From assembly GCA_017539565.1 (NCBI GenBank), contig JAFYCS010000046.1, positions 1 to 35,661 on the forward strand: a stretch of DNA of 35,661 nt, written 5' to 3'. Both the position numbers and the translations under genes were made by a program. The DNA comes from Lachnospiraceae bacterium (lineage in GTDB: Bacteria > Bacillota > Clostridia > Lachnospirales > Lachnospiraceae). Position 1 is the first letter of the stretch, and the number at the start of each line of letters is the position of its first letter. A model generated the notes under the pieces. The model saw nothing but the letters and a program-made list of their open reading frames with translations, ran no database searches and had not been told where the DNA came from. Of this stretch, positions 17,049-26,804 are shown piece after piece.

Positions 17049-18917
17049 ATGGCGGAAAACAGTAAAACGGTGGTTATGTGTACATCAAGGATCTTTGATC
17101 TGCAGAACCACGCATTTATCAAGAAACTGAATGAATCGCTTCATGCGGCCGGTATCAGGCTTCTGGTTTATGCGCTCAATACTGATATTTACTGGGAAGA
17201 AGACTCGGATATGACTGAGGCCTTTATCTTTGACCTGATCCCCATGTGGAAGGTGGACGCACTTCTCTTCATGGATGAAAAGGTTAAAAGTCATACCGTG
17301 GCAGAGCGTGTTATCGCCAGAGCAAAGCATTTCAATATTCCCGTGCTGGTGGCTGACGGTGAATACGATGGCTGCGTAAGCGTGCGTTTTGATTTTAAAA
17401 ACGGATTCGAACGTCTGGTACGTCACATCATAGAAGATCATCATGTTAAAAATCCCCATTTTATGGCCGGGATAAGGAACAACCCTTTTTCCGACGAGAG
17501 GATAGAGATATTTAAGAGGGTCATAGCCGAAAACGGTATAGAATATACCGATGATATGTTAAGCTATGGCGAATTCTGGGCTATCCCTGCCAGAAAAGCC
17601 ATGAATGAGGCTCTGGATAAAGGGATAAGACCTGATGCCGTGATCTGTGCAAATGACTTTATGGCTATAAATGTCATATCGGTGCTTAAGGAACGCGGCT
17701 TTAATGTGCCGGAAGATGTGCTGGTATCGGGCTTTGACGGGATAGATGAAGCCAGGATATGTGAACCGGATATAACAACCTGTGACTGCAATACCGTTGT
17801 GCTCGCAGCTCAGACTTCGGAGCTACTTATAAAGATGTTAGCCGGCGAAGAGACAGAGGACAGGTATTATGTTCTGCCGGAGCTGATAACCGGCAGGTCC
17901 TGCGGCTGCAATAATGCCGGCATAGAAGGAGTCAGGCTTCTTAATATCGTAAATGACCAGTCCTATCGTTATCAGGACGATATGAACGAGTTCTATGAGA
18001 TGACCATGCGTATGCAGATGAGCAAGACTCCTGATGAGATGGCATCCCAGATATACGGAAACAAATTAAGCGAGATGTTCTGCCTGGTCAATACCCAGTG
18101 CTTTGAACGCAGTGTAGACTATTTCAAGCGGGAACTGGATATGGAGAATATGCCTCCCATGTGTCTTTTATATGACTCAAAGGATCCCGGCGGGATCAGG
18201 GGTGTAGAGGGAGATGACATCATGGCAGTGGTCGAAGACAGGATGGGAACGGGATATCCGCTGATCTTTAACCTGCTGCATTATCTGAAAAAGCCCATGG
18301 GCTATGTATGTTTCTGCTTTGAATGCTATGATATATCCGAATATGCCAAGACTTCTTCCATAAGCAATTACTTAAGCCTTGGACTGGGCGGTTTTGTCAA
18401 CATGCGTTATCAGCAGTATCTGTTTGAAAAGCTTGAAGATACTTACAAGTACGATCATCTTACCGGCCTGTACAACAGGCAGGGATTTACCCATGCACTG
18501 GAAAAACTGAAAGAGAAACGTGCTGATGAGAAGCCGCCCATGGTAGTTATAATGGCGGATCTGGATGGTCTTAAATATATAAATGACTTCTTCGGACACG
18601 AAGACGGTGACAATGCGATAGCAGTCTGCGCAAAGGCGCTTAAGGACTCATGTCCTCCGGAAGCGCTGTGCCTGCGCTTCGGTGGTGATGAGATGCTGGC
18701 CTTCATCTGCGGTGAATGCGATCCCGTGGCCATCGTTAATTCCATAGCAGATAAGCTTGACGCATACAATGCATCATCGGGACGCGATTATACCGTAAGC
18801 GCCAGCTGCGGTGCGTATACTACCGTGCTCGATCATGACAGCGATATGGAAGATATGGTGCGCAGGGCTGACGAAGATATGTACAGGAATAAGAAAGCAA
18901 AGAAAAGACGTAACTGA
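17049..18917 (+). CDS. Sugar-binding (LacI/XylR-type) domain fused to GGDEF; predicted diguanylate cyclase
   Basis: This 622-residue cytoplasmic protein lacks signal peptide and membrane helices. Residues about 6-285 form a periplasmic-binding-protein-like type 1 domain as in LacI-family regulators (RPDAVICANDFMAINVISVL at 194-213, EDVLVSGFDGIDEARICEPD at 222-241, LITGRSCGC at 279-287), but no DNA-binding helix-turn-helix precedes it. A middle region (about 300-455) of unknown fold follows, then a GGDEF domain about 465-620 with DHLTGLYNRQGF, ADLDGLKYINDFFGH and the motif GGDEM (545-549). The last position is Met instead of Phe, and no RxxD inhibition site is present. Prediction: sugar or related ligand modulates c-di-GMP synthesis. 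It is first in the cassette, behind its promoter. Confidence 0.9.
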   Translation: MAENSKTVVMCTSRIFDLQNHAFIKKLNESLHAAGIRLLVYALNTDIYWEEDSDMTEAFIFDLIPMWKVDALLFMDEKVKSHTVAERVIARAKHFNIPVLVADGEYDGCVSVRFDFKNGFERLVRHIIEDHHVKNPHFMAGIRNNPFSDERIEIFKRVIAENGIEYTDDMLSYGEFWAIPARKAMNEALDKGIRPDAVICANDFMAINVISVLKERGFNVPEDVLVSGFDGIDEARICEPDITTCDCNTVVLAAQTSELLIKMLAGEETEDRYYVLPELITGRSCGCNNAGIEGVRLLNIVNDQSYRYQDDMNEFYEMTMRMQMSKTPDEMASQIYGNKLSEMFCLVNTQCFERSVDYFKRELDMENMPPMCLLYDSKDPGGIRGVEGDDIMAVVEDRMGTGYPLIFNLLHYLKKPMGYVCFCFECYDISEYAKTSSISNYLSLGLGGFVNMRYQQYLFEKLEDTYKYDHLTGLYNRQGFTHALEKLKEKRADEKPPMVVIMADLDGLKYINDFFGHEDGDNAIAVCAKALKDSCPPEALCLRFGGDEMLAFICGECDPVAIVNSIADKLDAYNASSGRDYTVSASCGAYTTVLDHDSDMEDMVRRADEDMYRNKKAKKRRN

Positions 18918-18932
18918 TGAAAGGAATAATGT

Positions 18933-20270
18933 ATGAAGCATATCCTAATTATTGATGATGACAAGATAAATATTGATTGTGCCAGGATGAGCTTGAGCAG
19001 ACAGTATAAGATAACCGGTACGATCTCGGGAAGGCAGGCGCTTCAGTATCTTGCCGGCAATATTCCGGATCTTATACTGCTGGATCTTAATATGCCGTTT
19101 ATGGACGGTTATGATGTAATGAAGAGTATAAAGGCGGATCCGCGTATCGCCGATATCCCCGTTGTATTCTTAAGTGCGGAGAAGGATGCGGTGACCGAAG
19201 GCCGCTGCCTGGAGCTGGGAGCGGTGGATTTTATACCCAAGCCTTTTGTGCCCAGTGTACTCTTAAGCCGTCTTGAAAAAATATTCCGCGGACTTGATCA
19301 GAGGCAGGAGCTTAAGAAGGAGCTGGACCAGATAAAGGACAAGTCACAGAGGGATGCTCTGACAGGCCTGTGGAACAGGGCTTATGTAGCGAAAAATGTC
19401 GAACAGCGTATAGCGAACGGCGGCAGCGGCGCACTGTTCATGCTGGATATGGATAACTTCAAGGCCATCAACGACAATTACGGACATGATGCGGGTGACA
19501 ATACTCTTAAGATGTTTGCGGACACTTTAAGAACCTACAGTAAAGACGGGGATATCCCCGCGCGTGTGGGTGGCGATGAGTTCGTAGCCTGGATCGACGG
19601 ATATGTTGATAAGGAGACACTGAGCCGCAGGGCCGGGGCTATCATCCAGGACCTGTGTAAGAAGCTTGAGGACTGCCGTTTTGAGACCAATTCATCGGTA
19701 TCCCTGGGTATAGCGATACTGCCTGCCGACGGGGACAACTTCACAGACCTGTATAATGCTGCAGATAAAGCGCTGTACTATGTTAAGCAGAACGGAAAAA
19801 ATTCCTACCACTTCTACAGTGATGAGATAAAGCAGGATGATAATGCAGGCGCAGCGGCCAGCATAGAATATATACATGAGGCCATGAGACGTGCCGACGG
19901 AAAGAAGGGTGCGTACATGCTTGACTATCATGGCTTTACTTACATCTATAATTTCTTATGCCGTTTATCGGCAAGAAACGAGTTTGTATCGCGGATGCTG
20001 CTCATAACCCTTACCCCCGAAGAGGGATATGTCCTTGAAGATGCCGAGATGAACCGGGTTGCCGACGTGCTGGACCAGGCACTGATATCAAGCCTGCGGC
20101 GTGGCGACGTGGCTGCCAACTATACCTCGAGACAGGTACTGGTACTGCTGCCCGGTACAGGTGAAGCGGAAACCCTTATGATAGCGGAACGTATCCGCCT
20201 TGAATATGAGAGCAGGCTTCCGGGCTGCGGGATCAAACTTCATATAAGCATGCATACGGACATTGAATAA
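18933..20270 (+). CDS. Response regulator: REC-GGDEF plus degenerate GGDEF-like C-terminus
   Basis: This 445-residue protein opens with a receiver (about 1-120; acidic DDD at 8-10, phospho-acceptor Asp51 in LLDLNMP, Lys in IPKPF). A GGDEF domain follows (about 138-297) with DALTGLWNRA, LDMDNFKAINDNYGH and a complete GGDEF at 213-217, so phosphorylation-controlled diguanylate cyclase activity is likely. Its inhibition-site arginine is replaced by Lys (K204xxD207). Residues about 310-445 look like a second, degraded GGDEF fold: TSRQV replaces the signature (398-402), yet R389xxD392 sits exactly at inhibition-site spacing, suggesting a c-di-GMP-binding regulatory domain. It starts 15 bases after the previous stop behind AAAGGAA. 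Confidence 0.92.
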   Translation: MKHILIIDDDKINIDCARMSLSRQYKITGTISGRQALQYLAGNIPDLILLDLNMPFMDGYDVMKSIKADPRIADIPVVFLSAEKDAVTEGRCLELGAVDFIPKPFVPSVLLSRLEKIFRGLDQRQELKKELDQIKDKSQRDALTGLWNRAYVAKNVEQRIANGGSGALFMLDMDNFKAINDNYGHDAGDNTLKMFADTLRTYSKDGDIPARVGGDEFVAWIDGYVDKETLSRRAGAIIQDLCKKLEDCRFETNSSVSLGIAILPADGDNFTDLYNAADKALYYVKQNGKNSYHFYSDEIKQDDNAGAAASIEYIHEAMRRADGKKGAYMLDYHGFTYIYNFLCRLSARNEFVSRMLLITLTPEEGYVLEDAEMNRVADVLDQALISSLRRGDVAANYTSRQVLVLLPGTGEAETLMIAERIRLEYESRLPGCGIKLHISMHTDIE

Positions 20271-20289
20271 GGGTGGTGAAGGAACAGGA

Positions 20290-21330
20290 ATGAGAGTTAA
20301 ACATTCTGCATGGATACTGATAGTAGATGATGATGTACAGAATCTTAAGGTGGCCAGCCGTATCCTGGATGAATACGGTGTCAGGGTCAGCTGTCTTACC
20401 AACGGCAGCGATGCGATAAAGTTTCTGATGTTCAATAAGCCCGACCTGGTATTGCTGGATGTGCATATGCCGGAGATGGATGGTTTTGATACTATGCAGG
20501 CAATGAAGGAAAGGCCGGAGATGGCGGATATCCCGGTGATCTTCCTTACTGCGGATGAAGACGGAGAGACTGAGACCCGCGGCTTCAGGGCCGGGGCAAG
20601 GGATTTCATCCGTAAGCCTTTCAATGCGGATGTGCTTACGCTCCGTACCTGGCACGCCATAGAGCTGGACCGTCTCCAGGAAAACCTGGCACAGGAAGTG
20701 GAGACTGCTTATCATGACCTGATGGATGAGAAGCGGAGGGGCGAGCGCCTTATCATGCAGCTGGTACGTACCATGTCCGGTGCCATAGATGCAAAGGACA
20801 GTTATACCAACGGTCATTCCAACAGGGTAGCGGAATATGCAAAGATGATAGCTAAGAGAGCCGGCTATGATGAGAGCTTTCAGGAAAAGATATTTATGAT
20901 GGGGATGCTGCACGATATAGGAAAGATAGGTGTGCGTGACGACATCCTTACCAAGCCGGGAAAACTTACCGAGGCCGAATATAAGAGGATACAGGAACAT
21001 CCGACCATAGGTGCGGGTATACTTAAGAATATAACGGAATATCCCGAGCTGGCTAACGGTGCACACTGGCATCATGAGCGTTATGACGGCAAGGGTTATC
21101 CCGACGGATTAAAGGGTGAGGAGATACCCGCTGAAGCGCGTATCATTGCCGTGGCGGATGCTTATGATGCAATGAGCTCCACCAGGAGTTACCGTGCAAA
21201 CCTGACACAGGCGGAAGTTCGCCGACGTGTGGAAGAAGCCTCCGGGACACAGTTCGATCCGCGTTTTGCGCAGATAATGCTCACATTGATAGACGAGGAT
21301 ACGGAATATAATATGAGGGAAACTGACTGA
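20290..21330 (+). CDS. Response regulator REC-HD-GYP, predicted c-di-GMP phosphodiesterase
   Basis: This 346-residue protein joins a receiver (about 6-125; DDD at 13-15, phospho-acceptor Asp57 in LLDVHMP, Lys109-Pro110) to an HD-GYP domain (about 155-340). The metal and signature residues look complete: HSNRVAEYA (176-184), HDIGKIG (208-214), EHP (236-238), HHERYDGKGYPDG (261-273) and ADAYDAM near 297. It should hydrolyse c-di-GMP under phosphorylation control and so opposes the two cyclases upstream. ATG 20290 with AAGGAA 5 bases upstream is preferred; the TTG at 20263 overlaps the previous gene and gives a longer, less typical N-terminus. Same operon as its neighbours. Confidence 0.95.
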   Translation: MRVKHSAWILIVDDDVQNLKVASRILDEYGVRVSCLTNGSDAIKFLMFNKPDLVLLDVHMPEMDGFDTMQAMKERPEMADIPVIFLTADEDGETETRGFRAGARDFIRKPFNADVLTLRTWHAIELDRLQENLAQEVETAYHDLMDEKRRGERLIMQLVRTMSGAIDAKDSYTNGHSNRVAEYAKMIAKRAGYDESFQEKIFMMGMLHDIGKIGVRDDILTKPGKLTEAEYKRIQEHPTIGAGILKNITEYPELANGAHWHHERYDGKGYPDGLKGEEIPAEARIIAVADAYDAMSSTRSYRANLTQAEVRRRVEEASGTQFDPRFAQIMLTLIDEDTEYNMRETD

Positions 21331-21347: not shown

Positions 21348-24125
21348 ATGGATATTAACAGTGTAGAATATAAGATCAATGAGAAGGGGATGATATTTCA
21401 TCTCGTGATCATTATGGTATACAGCTTCATGGCACTGGTGCTCAGTGCGGAAACAGTGCTCATGGGCTGGGAGCTGTGGACGATACCCGCGCTCATCACT
21501 TCAGTGATAGCAGTATGGTGGGTGTATGTTAAGCAGGCACTGACTGCCAAGGCCAGGCTCTATATCTATCTTATCATGATGCTGATCGCGCTTTTCTATT
21601 ATGGCATTCATGCCACTTCGTTATTTGATGTACCGCTTTTCCTTTTAATGGCGATGATGCTCTTTGTTCTGGTGGATGAGAATTTCATCATCTACTTTTT
21701 CTATGTGGATTACGTGCTGATAATAGGCTGGCACATACTGGTAACAAAAGCTATCAGCACCGAAGCGTTTACCGCCCTTGAATGGTCAAGGCTGGTAATG
21801 AACTTTGCGGTGATAGTGATAGCGGGGCTGGTGTTCCGTTATACCATACACAGCAGGAAACGTGACCGCCAGAACTATCTGGAAGTCATAGGCATAATGG
21901 AGGAGACCAACAAAAGAAGCGAAGATTTCCTCACCAATGTTTCCCATGAGCTGCGTACTCCCATAAATGCGGTTACGGGTATGACCGCCGTAATGCAGGA
22001 GGAAGAGGAGGATGAAAACAAGCGCAGGAATCTAAGCTCCGTACAGCGTGCGGGCAGAAGGCTCTCCGACCAGATAGGCGATATACTGGATTATACGGAG
22101 ATAGATACGGGCAGGCTTCAGATAAGCCGCTCCAATTATATGATAAGCTCGCTTGTTTACGATCTGGCGGCAGAGCTCGACTTTATGTGGCATGACAGCC
22201 CCTGTGAGCTGGTCATGAACATTGATCCCGGACTTCCGGCGGGGCTCATCGGTGATCCCGCAAAGATCTCAAAGATAATCAGACATCTGGCAGACAATGC
22301 ACTCAAGTTCACAAAAGAAGGCGGCGTATATGTAAAAGTATACGGCATGAAGCGTGATTACGGTATCAATCTGTGCATACAGGTCAAGGATACCGGTATA
22401 GGTATCAGCCGGCAGCAGCTGGAACATCTTACGGATAATTTCTATCAGGCAGATGCCGGCAGGGCAAGGCGTGTGGGCGGTATAGGCCTGGGTCTGGCCG
22501 TGGTTCAGGGACTTGTGATGAACATGGACGGATTCATGCATATAGAATCCGAAGAAGGCGTAGGTACTACGGTGCACGTCAGTATACCCCAGGGTATCAG
22601 CGATCCCGAACCCTGTATGAGTATCGATCATGCGGATGAGCTCTGTGTAGGATGCTTCCTCTATCCCGACAGATATACCGTACCCACAGTCCGTGATTAT
22701 TACAACGAGATGATAAGGGCGCTGGGGGACGGCCTGAATGTCAAAGTGCATTATTGTATCAGTGTGGAAGAATTACGTAAGGTAATGTCCCGGTACAAGC
22801 TGACCCATCTGTTTGTTGGACGTCCTGAATTTGAGGAGTGCCGCAACTTCCTTGCAGGTTATGACAAGTCCCTGCTGGTAGCAGTCAGCGCAGGCAGGGA
22901 AGACGAGCCGGTGGGAGATAAGAGTGTCAAGCTGTTAAAGAAGCCCGTCACGGTATTCTCCATACTGCAGATACTTAATGAACGAGATATCTTTAAGACC
23001 AAAGAAGAATCAAAACCTTACCTGCCCGGTATCCGTGCCCTCGTTGTGGATGATGACGGCATGAACCTTATCGTGGCCAGAGGTATCCTTGGCATGTACG
23101 GCATGAGTGTTGATACCGCAGGCGGCGGTGCGGAAGCTATAGATATGTGCGGGAATAATGAATACGATATCATATTCATGGACCATATGATGCCCGAGAT
23201 GGACGGTATCGAAGCTGCGCAGAAGATCAGGCAGATACTCAGGTCCGAATACCGCACAAAGATAGTGGCACTTACGGCAAACGCAGTGAGCGGCGCAAGG
23301 GAGATGTTCTTAAGCGAAGGCTTTGATGAATTCCTGGCCAAGCCCATAGAGCCGCTGATACTTGAGAGGATATTAAGAAAGCTGCTGCCGGTAACTGCCT
23401 TTGCACAGCGCCCGGGAGAGGAACCGGATAAGACTGAAGCAGCGGAGAAGAAGATGAGTGATGTATATGAGATAAAGACCGGGATAGGAAAGCCGGAGAA
23501 ACCTAAGGAAGAGGTAAAGGAAAAGAGCATAGCCGATAAGCTTAAGGATGCAGGCTTTGATACGGAGCAGGCCCTTGTATACTGCGGTAACGATGAGAGC
23601 TTTTACACCGATATGCTCAGGACCTTTGTTTCCGAAGCACCCGATAAGAAATCCAATCTGCAGAAATTCTATGATGCCGATGATATTGAGAATTACAGGA
23701 TAGCCGTCCATGCATTAAAGAGCGGTTCGCGTACCATAGGCGCCATGCAGCTTTCCGAGCAGGCCAGGGCCCTGGAAGAAGCCTCAAAGAACGGTGATAC
23801 GGATTATATCAAGAGCAATCATGATCTTTTAAATGTTACCTTTGACGGGACCACGGAGCTCATCGCTTCGGTGCTTCCTAATGTGCAGGTTAAGGCATCG
23901 TCTTCGGGAGAGACGGCAGAGGGCGACTGGGACCAGCTCATAGCTGAACTTAAGGAGGCCATAGACGGATTTGATTCCGATGCTGCATCTGAGATAATGG
24001 AGAAGGCCGGCAGCATGATGCATAACGGTACTGCCTGCAGTGATATACTGAATAAGGTCTTTTCGGCGCTGCGCGACTATGATTTCATAGCTGCAGGTGA
24101 AGCGCTTGAAGAGATCGGGGGTTGA
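21348..24125 (+). CDS. Membrane hybrid histidine kinase: kinase-pseudoREC-REC-HPt
   Basis: This 925-residue protein has about six N-terminal membrane helices (residues 15-165) with short loops, then a HisKA domain with phospho-acceptor His200 in SHELRTP and a HATPase domain (ADNALKFT 315-322, DTGIGI 348-353, GGIGLGLA 377-384). Residues about 430-548 resemble a receiver that has lost its acceptor Asp but keeps a Lys-Pro near 532. A normal receiver follows (563-682; DDD 568-570, Asp612 in FMDHMMP), then a Lys/Glu-rich linker and an HPt domain (about 730-820) with His788 in HALKSGS. All phosphorelay parts are therefore in one chain. It starts 17 bases after the HD-GYP gene; that regulator or the REC-GGDEF are plausible targets. 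Confidence 0.93.
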   Translation: MDINSVEYKINEKGMIFHLVIIMVYSFMALVLSAETVLMGWELWTIPALITSVIAVWWVYVKQALTAKARLYIYLIMMLIALFYYGIHATSLFDVPLFLLMAMMLFVLVDENFIIYFFYVDYVLIIGWHILVTKAISTEAFTALEWSRLVMNFAVIVIAGLVFRYTIHSRKRDRQNYLEVIGIMEETNKRSEDFLTNVSHELRTPINAVTGMTAVMQEEEEDENKRRNLSSVQRAGRRLSDQIGDILDYTEIDTGRLQISRSNYMISSLVYDLAAELDFMWHDSPCELVMNIDPGLPAGLIGDPAKISKIIRHLADNALKFTKEGGVYVKVYGMKRDYGINLCIQVKDTGIGISRQQLEHLTDNFYQADAGRARRVGGIGLGLAVVQGLVMNMDGFMHIESEEGVGTTVHVSIPQGISDPEPCMSIDHADELCVGCFLYPDRYTVPTVRDYYNEMIRALGDGLNVKVHYCISVEELRKVMSRYKLTHLFVGRPEFEECRNFLAGYDKSLLVAVSAGREDEPVGDKSVKLLKKPVTVFSILQILNERDIFKTKEESKPYLPGIRALVVDDDGMNLIVARGILGMYGMSVDTAGGGAEAIDMCGNNEYDIIFMDHMMPEMDGIEAAQKIRQILRSEYRTKIVALTANAVSGAREMFLSEGFDEFLAKPIEPLILERILRKLLPVTAFAQRPGEEPDKTEAAEKKMSDVYEIKTGIGKPEKPKEEVKEKSIADKLKDAGFDTEQALVYCGNDESFYTDMLRTFVSEAPDKKSNLQKFYDADDIENYRIAVHALKSGSRTIGAMQLSEQARALEEASKNGDTDYIKSNHDLLNVTFDGTTELIASVLPNVQVKASSSGETAEGDWDQLIAELKEAIDGFDSDAASEIMEKAGSMMHNGTACSDILNKVFSALRDYDFIAAGEALEEIGG

Positions 24126-24128
24126 TCT

Positions 24129-26804
24129 ATGAATTTATTCAAGAGACTGATATTACGGGTAAAAAATCCGGAAGTGCCTCTGCATGACCGCATGTTCCTG
24201 CTCGTCAGTATAATAACGACCATCTCGATATTCGTCGTCTTTATCGGGGATATAGTTTTAGGTGAGGATGAAAGGGAGATAATGACCCTGGGTGCTACGC
24301 TGGTAGTTGCACCCCTGATCACCGCTTTAGCCATGCGGTACAAACGTATCAATGTGGGAGCGGTACTGCAGGTACTGTGCATAATATTTGCCATAATGCC
24401 CGTCACCTTTTTCTACGGCGGGGGCTTATACGGCGGATCCCTGATCTGGTTTCCATATTGTTATCTGTTCATAGGACTGGTGCTTTCAGGGGCAGTGCGC
24501 ATCGTGATGATACTGCTGCTGACGGCGGTAGGTATCGCCGAATTTGCATTGGCATATTTCATGCCTGATCTTATTGCAGTTAAGCACGGTGAAGAGATGT
24601 TCTACCTGGATGTGTGCCTTTCTGTATTGGTAGTTGGCCTTATGACCTTTATCCTGGTAAGCTTCCTTACAAAGCTTTATGTTGCGGAGAATGACAGGGC
24701 CAAGGCGCAGGCGGCCAAGGTAGAGGAGATGAACAGGGCACAGAGCCGTTTCTTCTCCAATATGAGTCATGAGATACGTACCCCCATCAATACCATTATC
24801 GGACTTGATGAGATGATACTCCGTGAGAATATCTCGGAAGAAGTGGTGGAGGATGCAAAGAACATCCAGTCTTCAGGCAGGATGCTTTTGTCCCTCATCA
24901 ATGATATCCTTGATATGTCAAAGATCGAATCCGGCAAGATGGAGATAGTTCCCGTATCTTATGATGTGGGCGGCATGCTCTCCGAGATAGTCAATATGAT
25001 ATGGTCGAGGGCACAGGAAAAGGGACTTGAGTTCTCCGTGGATGTGGATCCGGAGATGCCTTCACAGTTATTTGCCGATGAGGTCAGGATCAAACAGATA
25101 CTGATCAACCTGCTGAACAACGCAGTCAAGTACACTAAAGAGGGTACGGTATCTTTGTCCATCAGTGCCAGAAAGCTGGGGACCAACAAGGTTTCTGTGA
25201 CCTATACGGTAGAGGATACCGGCATGGGTATCAGGAAAGAGAGCATCCCCCATCTCTTTGATGCCTTCAAGAGAGTGGACACTGTGAATAACCGTTATAT
25301 CGAAGGAACGGGACTGGGACTGTCCATAGTAAAACAACTCGTAGACCTGATGGGTGGTGATATAGCAGTAAACAGTATCTACACCAAAGGATCGACCTTC
25401 ATGGTAACTCTGGAACAGGAGATAGTTGATGAGAAAGCCATAGGGCATCTGAATCCGGAAACCTGGCGCATCTTAAGTTCCAGGGAGCATTACCATCAGA
25501 GCTTTGAAGCACCCGGTGCAAAGGTGCTTATAGTTGATGACAATAATTCAAACCTTATGGTGGCGGAAAAACTCCTGCGTGCCACCAGGATACAGGTATT
25601 CAAGGCATTGAGCGGGGCGGATGCATTAAAGCAGACTCTTAAGGAGCACTTTGATGCGATACTCATGGATCACCTTATGCCGGAAATGGACGGCATTGTA
25701 TGTATGCACGCCATAAGGGAGCAGGCCGGCGGGCTGTGCCGTAATACTCCCATAGTAGTGCTTACTGCCAATGCGGGCAGCACAAACCAGACGATGTATC
25801 AGAAGGAAGGCTTTGACGGTTATCTGGTCAAACCCGTAAGCGGCACGCTTCTGGAAGCGGCACTGTTAAAAGTCCTGCCCAGGGATTTGGTGCATCTTAA
25901 CAATATGTCGGAGGAAGAGTTCGAGAAAAACAGTGTGCTGCGACATACCCGCCATAAGATGCCGCTGATGATAACTACAGACAGCGTATCCGATCTGCCT
26001 GCGGAGCTTATCAAGAGACTGCATATAAAGGTCCTTCCTTATCATGTGCATACCCATAAGGGAAGCTTTTTAGACGGTATAGAGGCGGAGACCGATGCAG
26101 TCCTTAACTACATGGTCAAGGATGATTCGGAGGCAAGGAGCGAATGTCCTTCCGTAGCCGAATATGAAAGCTTCTTTGCGCAGTGCCTGTCACAGGCCCA
26201 GTACATACTGCATATCTCTATGGGAAAGAAATCTTCCGACGGCTATAAGAATGCCTGTGAAGCGGCTGTATCGTTCTATAATGTCACGGTATTTGATTCG
26301 GGACACTTATCCAGCGGTATGGGCCTTATGGCATTGGCAGCCAGGGAAATGTCGGAATCTGTCCAGGGTATCAGCGATGAACTGATAAGCTCCCTTGAAG
26401 CGCACAAGCAGCATGTGGAGACAAGCTTTATCGTGGACAGCACGGAGTATCTTAAGAGGGGCGGGAAGATATCCGAGACCCTTAACAAGTTCTGTACCGT
26501 GTTCATGCTGCACCCCGTATTCATAATGAAGGACAGCAGGTTAAAGACGGGAAATATTTTCTTCGGTACCAGGGATGCGGTGCGCAGGGGTTATATACAC
26601 TGGGCGCTCAGGCATACCATGGATATAGATGATTCGGTTCTCTTTGTCACATATGTTGGCATGAAGGAAGGGGAACTTAAGATGATAGAGGAAGAGGTAA
26701 ACAGTATATTCAGGTTCAAAAAGATATGGTTCCAGAAGGCTTCACCGGCGGTGGGCATCAACTGCGGTCCCGGAACTTTCGGCCTGATCTTCTCCAGGAA
26801 GTAA
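24129..26804 (+). CDS. Membrane hybrid histidine kinase-REC fused to a DegV (fatty-acid-binding) domain
   Basis: This 891-residue protein carries about six membrane helices (24-182), HisKA with His214 in SHEIRTP, HATPase with INLLNNAVKYT (326-336), DTGMGI (363-368) and GTGLGLSI (393-400), and a receiver (464-585; DD at 470-471, Asp514 in LMDHLMP). After a short linker, residues about 612-891 form a complete DegV/FakB-like domain: TTDSVSDLP (616-624), YHVHTHKGSFLDGIE, CPSVAEYESF, HISMGKKSSDGYKNA, VFDSGHLSSGMG, EYLKRGGKIS and GINCGPGTFGL at the C-terminus. FakB/DegV proteins bind fatty acids; the usual SxLSGTY stretch is altered here. The reading frame is continuous, with no frameshift or convincing internal start. 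It begins 3 bases after the previous stop. A lipid-responsive kinase is inferred. Confidence 0.93.
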   Translation: MNLFKRLILRVKNPEVPLHDRMFLLVSIITTISIFVVFIGDIVLGEDEREIMTLGATLVVAPLITALAMRYKRINVGAVLQVLCIIFAIMPVTFFYGGGLYGGSLIWFPYCYLFIGLVLSGAVRIVMILLLTAVGIAEFALAYFMPDLIAVKHGEEMFYLDVCLSVLVVGLMTFILVSFLTKLYVAENDRAKAQAAKVEEMNRAQSRFFSNMSHEIRTPINTIIGLDEMILRENISEEVVEDAKNIQSSGRMLLSLINDILDMSKIESGKMEIVPVSYDVGGMLSEIVNMIWSRAQEKGLEFSVDVDPEMPSQLFADEVRIKQILINLLNNAVKYTKEGTVSLSISARKLGTNKVSVTYTVEDTGMGIRKESIPHLFDAFKRVDTVNNRYIEGTGLGLSIVKQLVDLMGGDIAVNSIYTKGSTFMVTLEQEIVDEKAIGHLNPETWRILSSREHYHQSFEAPGAKVLIVDDNNSNLMVAEKLLRATRIQVFKALSGADALKQTLKEHFDAILMDHLMPEMDGIVCMHAIREQAGGLCRNTPIVVLTANAGSTNQTMYQKEGFDGYLVKPVSGTLLEAALLKVLPRDLVHLNNMSEEEFEKNSVLRHTRHKMPLMITTDSVSDLPAELIKRLHIKVLPYHVHTHKGSFLDGIEAETDAVLNYMVKDDSEARSECPSVAEYESFFAQCLSQAQYILHISMGKKSSDGYKNACEAAVSFYNVTVFDSGHLSSGMGLMALAAREMSESVQGISDELISSLEAHKQHVETSFIVDSTEYLKRGGKISETLNKFCTVFMLHPVFIMKDSRLKTGNIFFGTRDAVRRGYIHWALRHTMDIDDSVLFVTYVGMKEGELKMIEEEVNSIFRFKKIWFQKASPAVGINCGPGTFGLIFSRK

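Follow-up and report, generated by a model that had tools for sequence, protein, structure and literature searches.

The window, i.e. the whole analysed stretch of 35,661 nucleotides, encodes a hybrid histidine kinase with a receiver and a C-terminal DegV domain (P2), which is immediately preceded by a second hybrid kinase (P1). The best reading of these genes is a two-kinase phosphorelay containing a DegV-derived module for sensing or docking. Specifically, we propose, with a probability of about 0.6, that P2 is one half of a phosphorelay with P1, that its DegV domain is a cytoplasmic ligand-binding module, and that the output of the relay is c-di-GMP turnover. DegV seems to serve as an integral sensor of the relay and to contribute to the control of this internal messenger. 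The features of the window used below are:

24129..26804, + strand: P2, hybrid histidine kinase–receiver–DegV protein of 891 aa (open reading frame and Pfam)
24192..24668, + strand: membrane part of P2 with six predicted helices; the 19-residue peaks begin at residues 22, 51, 76, 113, 133 and 162 (hydropathy)
24738..24935, + strand: HisKA domain of P2 with His214 (Pfam; His kept in 95 of 95 copies)
25077..25418, + strand: HATPase_c domain of P2 (Pfam; N- and G-box residues kept in 94–95 of 95 copies)
25524..25862, + strand: receiver of P2 with Asp514 (Pfam; Asp kept in 95 of 95 copies)
25968..26798, + strand: DegV domain of P2, relay class (Pfam; residue comparison with FakB1; AlphaFold2 pLDDT 94)
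21348..24125, + strand: P1, partner hybrid kinase of 925 aa, membrane part–HisKA–HATPase–pseudo-receiver–receiver–Hpt (Pfam; pseudo-receiver read from the sequence)
23610..23795, + strand: Hpt of P1, residues 755–816, with His788 (Pfam; P1 and P2 of the window have no other Hpt match)
20263..21330, + strand: receiver–HD-GYP protein, predicted c-di-GMP phosphodiesterase and probable output (Pfam)
18933..20270, + strand: receiver–GGDEF protein, predicted diguanylate cyclase and possible second output (Pfam)

Architecture and spread of P2

The reading frame of P2 runs unbroken from the ATG at 24129 to the stop at 26804, and contains Pfam matches to HisKA (residues 204–269), HATPase_c (317–430), Response_reg (466–578) and DegV (614–890). 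The DegV match (PF02645) has an E value of 2.1e-39 and a score of 136 bits, against a curated cut-off of 27, and covers profile positions 3–279 of 280; the NCBIfam model TIGR00762 gives 155 bits against a cut-off of 99.7. The core residues of a hybrid histidine kinase, namely the HisKA His, the N and G boxes of the HATPase, and the receiver Asp and Lys, are complete in the window and kept in 94–95 of the 95 distinct copies of at least 760 aa, window included, that were compared. A first-pass annotation of the sequence had described one uninterrupted chain with six membrane helices, His214, Asp514 and a full-length DegV domain at the C-terminus, and each of these features was found again. The search across genomes for this domain architecture that it had proposed as a check recovered the same fusion widely, mainly in Lachnospiraceae.

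P2 is not an assembly artefact, because full-length homologues with 81, 75 and 73% identity occur in three other genomes, and because receiver sequence is in frame with DegV in all 80 loci kept from a scan of public genomes, some of which end at contig edges or hold an incomplete kinase part. A sequencing or frame artefact was also ruled out by the architecture common to the 95 distinct copies. P2 shares its HisKA–HATPase–REC core with the unorthodox hybrid kinases BarA, TorS and ArcB. The NCBIfam equivalogs provided no useful identity for P2; the best partial matches, TorS and BarA, were well under their curated cut-offs (TorS far short, at 325 of 676 bits). To our knowledge, kinases of the BarA, TorS and ArcB types contain no DegV domain, and we know of few histidine kinases whose intracellular sensor comes from a metabolic carrier.

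The genome of the window has seven DegV matches, three of which are in long frames (892, 776 and 1133 aa) and four stand alone, and a FakA-like gene of 566 aa on contig C48. A match to the middle domain of FakA was also seen in a frame of just 87 aa (G000:C2:42267-42500, L048). In the genus sample, 21 of 35 genomes, including that of the window, contain a match with an E value of 1e-200 or better, which reaches into DegV, and the others match by the kinase part. Frames of at least 650 aa holding this DegV occur in at least 26 of the 392 genomes of the order sample, in two family groups among the matches listed. In the family sample, at least 77 of 397 genomes have a match to the class at an E value of 1e-65 or better, and at least 67 of 397 have frames of at least 700 aa with the class DegV (94 of 108 rows among the matches listed). 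The order and family counts, in which long frames were counted by length, are lower bounds, because at most six candidates per genome were scored. Of the 14 family-sample rows with frames shorter than 700 aa, eight were examined; the other six are G949, G1090, G1096:C184, G908, G951 and G386, the last of which was covered separately as L079. The open-reading-frame filter showed no class DegV in the 580-aa frame of G494. The phylum sample contained frames of at least 700 aa at an E value of 1e-50 in three of 398 genomes, all from the family group of the window. The number of family genomes with long frames rules out a rare fusion confined to one genome.

The best 80 of 536 relatives from the scan of named genomes belong mainly to Lachnospiraceae metagenome-assembled genomes (MAGs), with some isolates (P6A3, Acetatifactor muris DSM 23669 and D16-50) and a few MAGs under other labels. 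Five MAG contigs labelled Treponema or Spirochaetaceae (L123, L143, L149, L156 and L157) carry P2 of the Lachnospiraceae type, which is nested within the Lachnospiraceae forms in the trees. These copies reflect either lateral transfer or binning error, and their occurrence in five separate MAGs favours the former. A search of titles and abstract openings in the literature found no kinase–DegV fusion; the DegV passages of PMC3146951 concern DegV adjoining hemolysin III genes.

The P1 partner, the single Hpt and the gene neighbourhood

The P1 gene of the window stops 3 nt ahead of the start of P2. The catalytic His, Asp, Asn and Gly residues of P1 are kept in 68–69 of 69 P1 rows, and the Hpt His in all 61 of these rows that have the Hpt module. 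The pseudo-receiver of P1 has no Pfam match, and the position of its Asp is occupied by Gly in the window and in 48 of 69 rows, and by Asp in one of 69. The membrane parts of P1 and P2 were considered as homologous duplicates, which was rejected (hhalign probability 2.8). P1 is located immediately 5′ of P2 on the same strand in 85 of the 92 distinct fused genes whose 5′ end is intact and whose upstream sequence is at least 1 kb long. Among the remaining seven, P1 overlaps slightly beyond the limit in three, a P1-like frame is 625 nt away in one, and three have none. The P1 and P2 genes overlap by 4 or 1 nt in 59 of the 85 pairs. Among the stand-alone DegV genes, 43 have 1 kb or more of upstream sequence, and none of them shows a kinase, receiver or Hpt signal there; this control would detect 84 of the 85 P1 genes within the flank used, although the kinase core alone was detectable for only 21 of 85 with a flank of about 1.5 kb.

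Each examined pair has one Hpt. It is on P1 in 66 of the 85 pairs, where P2 ends at DegV, and on a P2 tail of at least 200 residues in 18 pairs, where P1 lacks it; in the one exception, L019, the Hpt module is in a separate downstream open reading frame. The P2 tails are homologous to the Hpt module of P1 (hhalign 99.95%, E 8e-38), and Pfam matched Hpt in four of the five long P2 forms scanned, the fifth being L024. The long forms make up a single clade (100/98) in a careful tree of 90 chosen rows, which comprise 59 of the 126 distinct fused, 8 rearranged and 23 stand-alone DegV domains. Therefore, the relocation of Hpt was one event, kept since, rather than 18 independent ones. A single Hpt that moved once between the two genes provides natural evidence that the pair acts as one relay. 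Two further arrangements were seen: Hpt as its own gene upstream of P1 in L203, and P1 split over two frames in L201.

The relay-class DegV domains constitute a single clade, separate from ordinary DegV proteins, in the careful tree (100/99). A quick tree of 176 rows placed the 126 fused domains and two unfused class members (L069 and L074) in one clade with a support of 100. The class also includes eight rearranged forms, all of which have a residue other than Arg at FakB1 position 205 and Asn at position 270. In five genomes (L198, L207, L208, L209 and L210), a free DegV protein of 283–302 aa is encoded directly behind a P1 that bears Hpt, and in two loci (L199 and L211) a DegV–Hpt protein follows a P1 without Hpt. 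In L205, also behind a P1 without Hpt, DegV is the N-terminal domain of a DegV–dCache–HisKA–HATPase–receiver chain, whose cut end partly matches the Hpt module. In the careful tree, the free form branches as sister to the remaining 62 class rows (support of these rows 98/94); the free group itself has values of 95/59, with weak SH-aLRT support, and the quick tree placed one free row at a polytomy close to the root of the class. Because the free form behind P1 is sister to the fused forms, the tie of DegV to the P1 relay most likely predates the fusion that gave rise to P2. Among other unusual loci, L206:4184-6863 encodes a histidine kinase–receiver (631 aa) and a DegV protein (285 aa) in overlapping frames, which points to a frame shift or to a P2 gene that is broken or wrongly assembled, and L212:4751-10140 contains tandem P2 genes flanked by Hpt-bearing hybrid kinases, with His at position 270 in one copy.

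The REC-GGDEF, REC-HD-GYP, P1 and P2 genes follow one another in this order on one strand of the window. Enzymes of c-di-GMP metabolism are encoded no more than three genes away in 48 of 69 loci (HD-GYP in 34, GGDEF in 19 and EAL in 15), and HD-GYP occupies gene −2 in 34 of the 67 loci that have a gene there. No such enzyme was found within three genes in 21 of 69 loci, partly because loci were cut. Some chance adjacency is expected, because the genome of the window has 56 GGDEF and 18 HD_5 matches in 3.37 Mb, and one of the 43 stand-alone DegV genes, L004 of the same genome, also has an HD-GYP protein upstream. It is this neighbourhood that points to c-di-GMP turnover as the probable output. 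The first-pass annotation had mentioned neither P1 nor the single Hpt of the pair, nor the frequent c-di-GMP enzymes nearby.

Other neighbours were also noted. In 16 of 69 loci (e.g. L102, L105, L106 and L110), gene +1 after P2 encodes a member of one protein cluster, about 274 aa long; the single member scanned proved to be a family-3 extracellular solute-binding protein, which may give the P1/P2 system another sensor, outside the cell. Positions 17049–18917 of the window encode a 622-aa protein with a LacI-type sugar-binding domain and a GGDEF domain (Pfam), and a 179-aa frame right after P2 (26832–27371) has no Pfam match at 1e-3.

Fold and FakB residues of the DegV domain

The DegV part of P2 was predicted by AlphaFold2, with 72 related domains, as a confident single domain of mixed strands and helices (pLDDT 94, pTM 0.91). 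Its sequence-nearest solved structures are 1pzx (E 2.2e-21), 4x9x (E 4.7e-17) and 2dt8, all of them DegV/FakB. We take 4x9x (MW1315) to be FakB2 and 5uto to be FakB1 of S. aureus. The residue numbers used for FakB2 matched 4x9x in the same check as the numbers of FakB1. The numbering and roles of FakB1 residues come from passages of PMC8892158, and each stated residue was checked onto its letter in 5uto. According to these passages, a Thr62–Ser95–His270 network holds the carboxylate of the fatty acid in FakB1, Arg173 is needed for fatty acid kinase catalysis, and Arg205 is the key FakB residue for binding FakA (PMC8892158).

In P2 of the window, FakB1 positions 62, 95, 173, 205 and 270 correspond to Ser671, Ser703, Lys780, Phe812 and Asn878. 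Thus, the Arg that binds FakA is replaced by Phe, and the carboxylate network keeps Ser95, with Thr changed to Ser and His to Asn. The functional columns were compared between 126 distinct fused DegV domains and 48 distinct stand-alone ones, the latter being high-scoring DegV genes of the same phylum that were partly picked by score. Arg205 is present in one of 126 fused domains, compared with 44 of 48 stand-alone ones, and the position, through which FakB docks on both FakA and the membrane, is hydrophobic (M, I, F, L, V, A or W) in 120 of the fused copies. Ile or Val replaces Lys203 in 95 of 126, and the position of Trp180, which inserts into the membrane in FakB, is polar or charged in 90 of 126. 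Arg173 is Arg in 75 of 126 fused domains, though in just two of the 27 long forms, versus 47 of 48 stand-alone ones. Position 270 is His in 44 of 48 stand-alone domains and Asn in 118 of 126 fused ones, a count biased by one scan pattern for the 80 loci that contains this Asn; the Asn is also present in 48 of the 56 fused copies from outside that pattern. Two of the four stand-alone controls without His270, L069 and L074, are the unfused relay-class members. Position 62 is Ser in 111 and Thr in five of the 126 fused domains, and Ser95 is retained in 105. The tallies at positions 205, 203, 180, 270, 62 and 95 therefore indicate that features for docking to FakA and the membrane have been lost and that the carboxylate site is partly left.

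The first-pass annotation had noted that SMGKKSSDGY replaces the usual DegV motif and that ligand choice may differ. The change is real and the ligand site is probably altered, but Ser703, the equivalent of Ser95 in FakB1 and Ser93 in FakB2, is retained; the changes of Arg205 to Phe812, Arg173 to Lys780 and His270 to Asn878 had escaped notice. A role of DegV as a phospho-acceptor through a conserved His was set aside, though not fully: a 33-row alignment that includes long forms has no invariant His, and in 72 short-form domains His695 of the window is invariant and His795 nearly so.

Mechanism and related systems

Based on these comparisons, a mechanism can be proposed. P1 and P2 are membrane hybrid kinases encoded back to back, and we infer that they form a complex. 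The kinase His would hand its phosphate to the receiver Asp, which would pass it on to the one Hpt that the pair shares, carried by P1 in the window. Receiver proteins, for instance the REC-HD-GYP protein encoded upstream, would accept the phosphate from this Hpt, and c-di-GMP turnover would change as a result. The DegV domain, drawn from the FakB-type fatty-acid-binding fold, would be the cytoplasmic ligand module, with the signal presumably running from the bound ligand to the activity of P1 and P2. DegV may directly sense a fatty acid or another lipid, lipids being one candidate class of ligand. The old docking face for FakA and the membrane, now hydrophobic, probably packs on the kinases.

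The same hydrophobic face could instead belong to a structural adaptor that binds no ligand and joins P1 to P2, or P2 to its Hpt. The replacement of Lys203 and Arg205 in the former FakA docking surface is consistent with such a role, as are the several positions in which DegV is found beside P1 and the Hpt that the pair has in common. However, a pure scaffold would not need the retained Ser95 and the hydroxyl at position 62, and the frequency of Asn270 outside the Asn-containing pattern shows that the exchange of His is fixed and not drifting. We regard the adaptor as a serious but doubtful alternative. A related arrangement, in which the membrane parts of P1 and P2 are the main sensors and DegV is merely a scaffold, could also exist.

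If DegV were the output, the relay would end by switching a lipid-binding protein, and the HD-GYP and GGDEF genes would be bystanders. The domain does follow the receiver in the fused P2 copies, which is the usual place of output or Hpt domains. This explanation is improbable, since five genomes encode free DegV behind P1 without a receiver, one copy has DegV N-terminal to the kinase, and Hpt is kept in the 85 examined pairs, once as a separate open reading frame, which implies phosphotransfer to other receivers. Least probable is the second option of the first-pass annotation, in which the domain is a genuine fatty-acid carrier of FakA and receiver phosphorylation switches its loading. The domain is a DegV related in sequence to FakB, and the genome contains a FakA-like gene. 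However, Arg205 is missing in 125 of 126 fused copies, position 173 is not Arg in 51, His270 is mostly Asn, and the Trp180 position is mostly polar or charged. Free forms lack the receiver that would control them, and the four stand-alone DegV genes of the genome are left for that task. The loss of FakB residues is not clear-cut, because Arg173 is still present in most fused copies, but the sequence makes the DegV domain of P2 unlikely to be a substrate carrier of FakA. What stands from the first-pass annotation is a genuine DegV domain, with a probably altered ligand site, in a phosphorelay kinase.

The ligand-sensing relay that we prefer can be compared with known systems. Like FakB/DegV proteins (PF02645; 5uto, 4x9x and 1pzx), the P2 class has a near-full DegV profile and keeps Ser95 and a hydroxyl at position 62. 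It differs from them in being fused to, or encoded behind, hybrid kinases, in forming a separate clade, and in the altered residues at Arg205, Lys203, His270 and the Trp180 position. A second likeness is to the RpfC/RpfG pair of Xanthomonas DSF signalling, in which RpfG is a REC-HD-GYP protein. P1 and the protein encoded at 20263–21330 share the layout of membrane helices, kinase, REC and Hpt beside an HD-GYP regulator, the first four of which are given for RpfC in passages of PMC5391125. In contrast to RpfC/RpfG, the window has a second kinase with DegV and an extra pseudo-receiver on P1, and is from another phylum. The passages also locate the DSF site in a 22-residue N-terminal segment of RpfC and not in a DegV domain (PMC5391125). 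The likeness concerns the layout and perhaps the type of signal, and is not proof of descent. We speculate, tentatively, that a DegV/FakB-fold class widespread in Lachnospiraceae has left fatty-acid metabolism and is now the intracellular receptor for a lipid or lipid-like ligand in a paired-kinase c-di-GMP relay, a Gram-positive counterpart of RpfC/RpfG that arose independently from a lipid carrier.

Little is known of the signals to which the many hybrid kinases in gut and rumen Lachnospiraceae respond. The FakB literature points to residues worth testing in the DegV domain of P2, and the natural free-standing DegV forms may be easier to purify than P2. The comparisons suggest that a bacterial signalling relay of Lachnospiraceae has recruited a fold whose normal task is to carry fatty acids, and that the fold has lost its old docking surface there.
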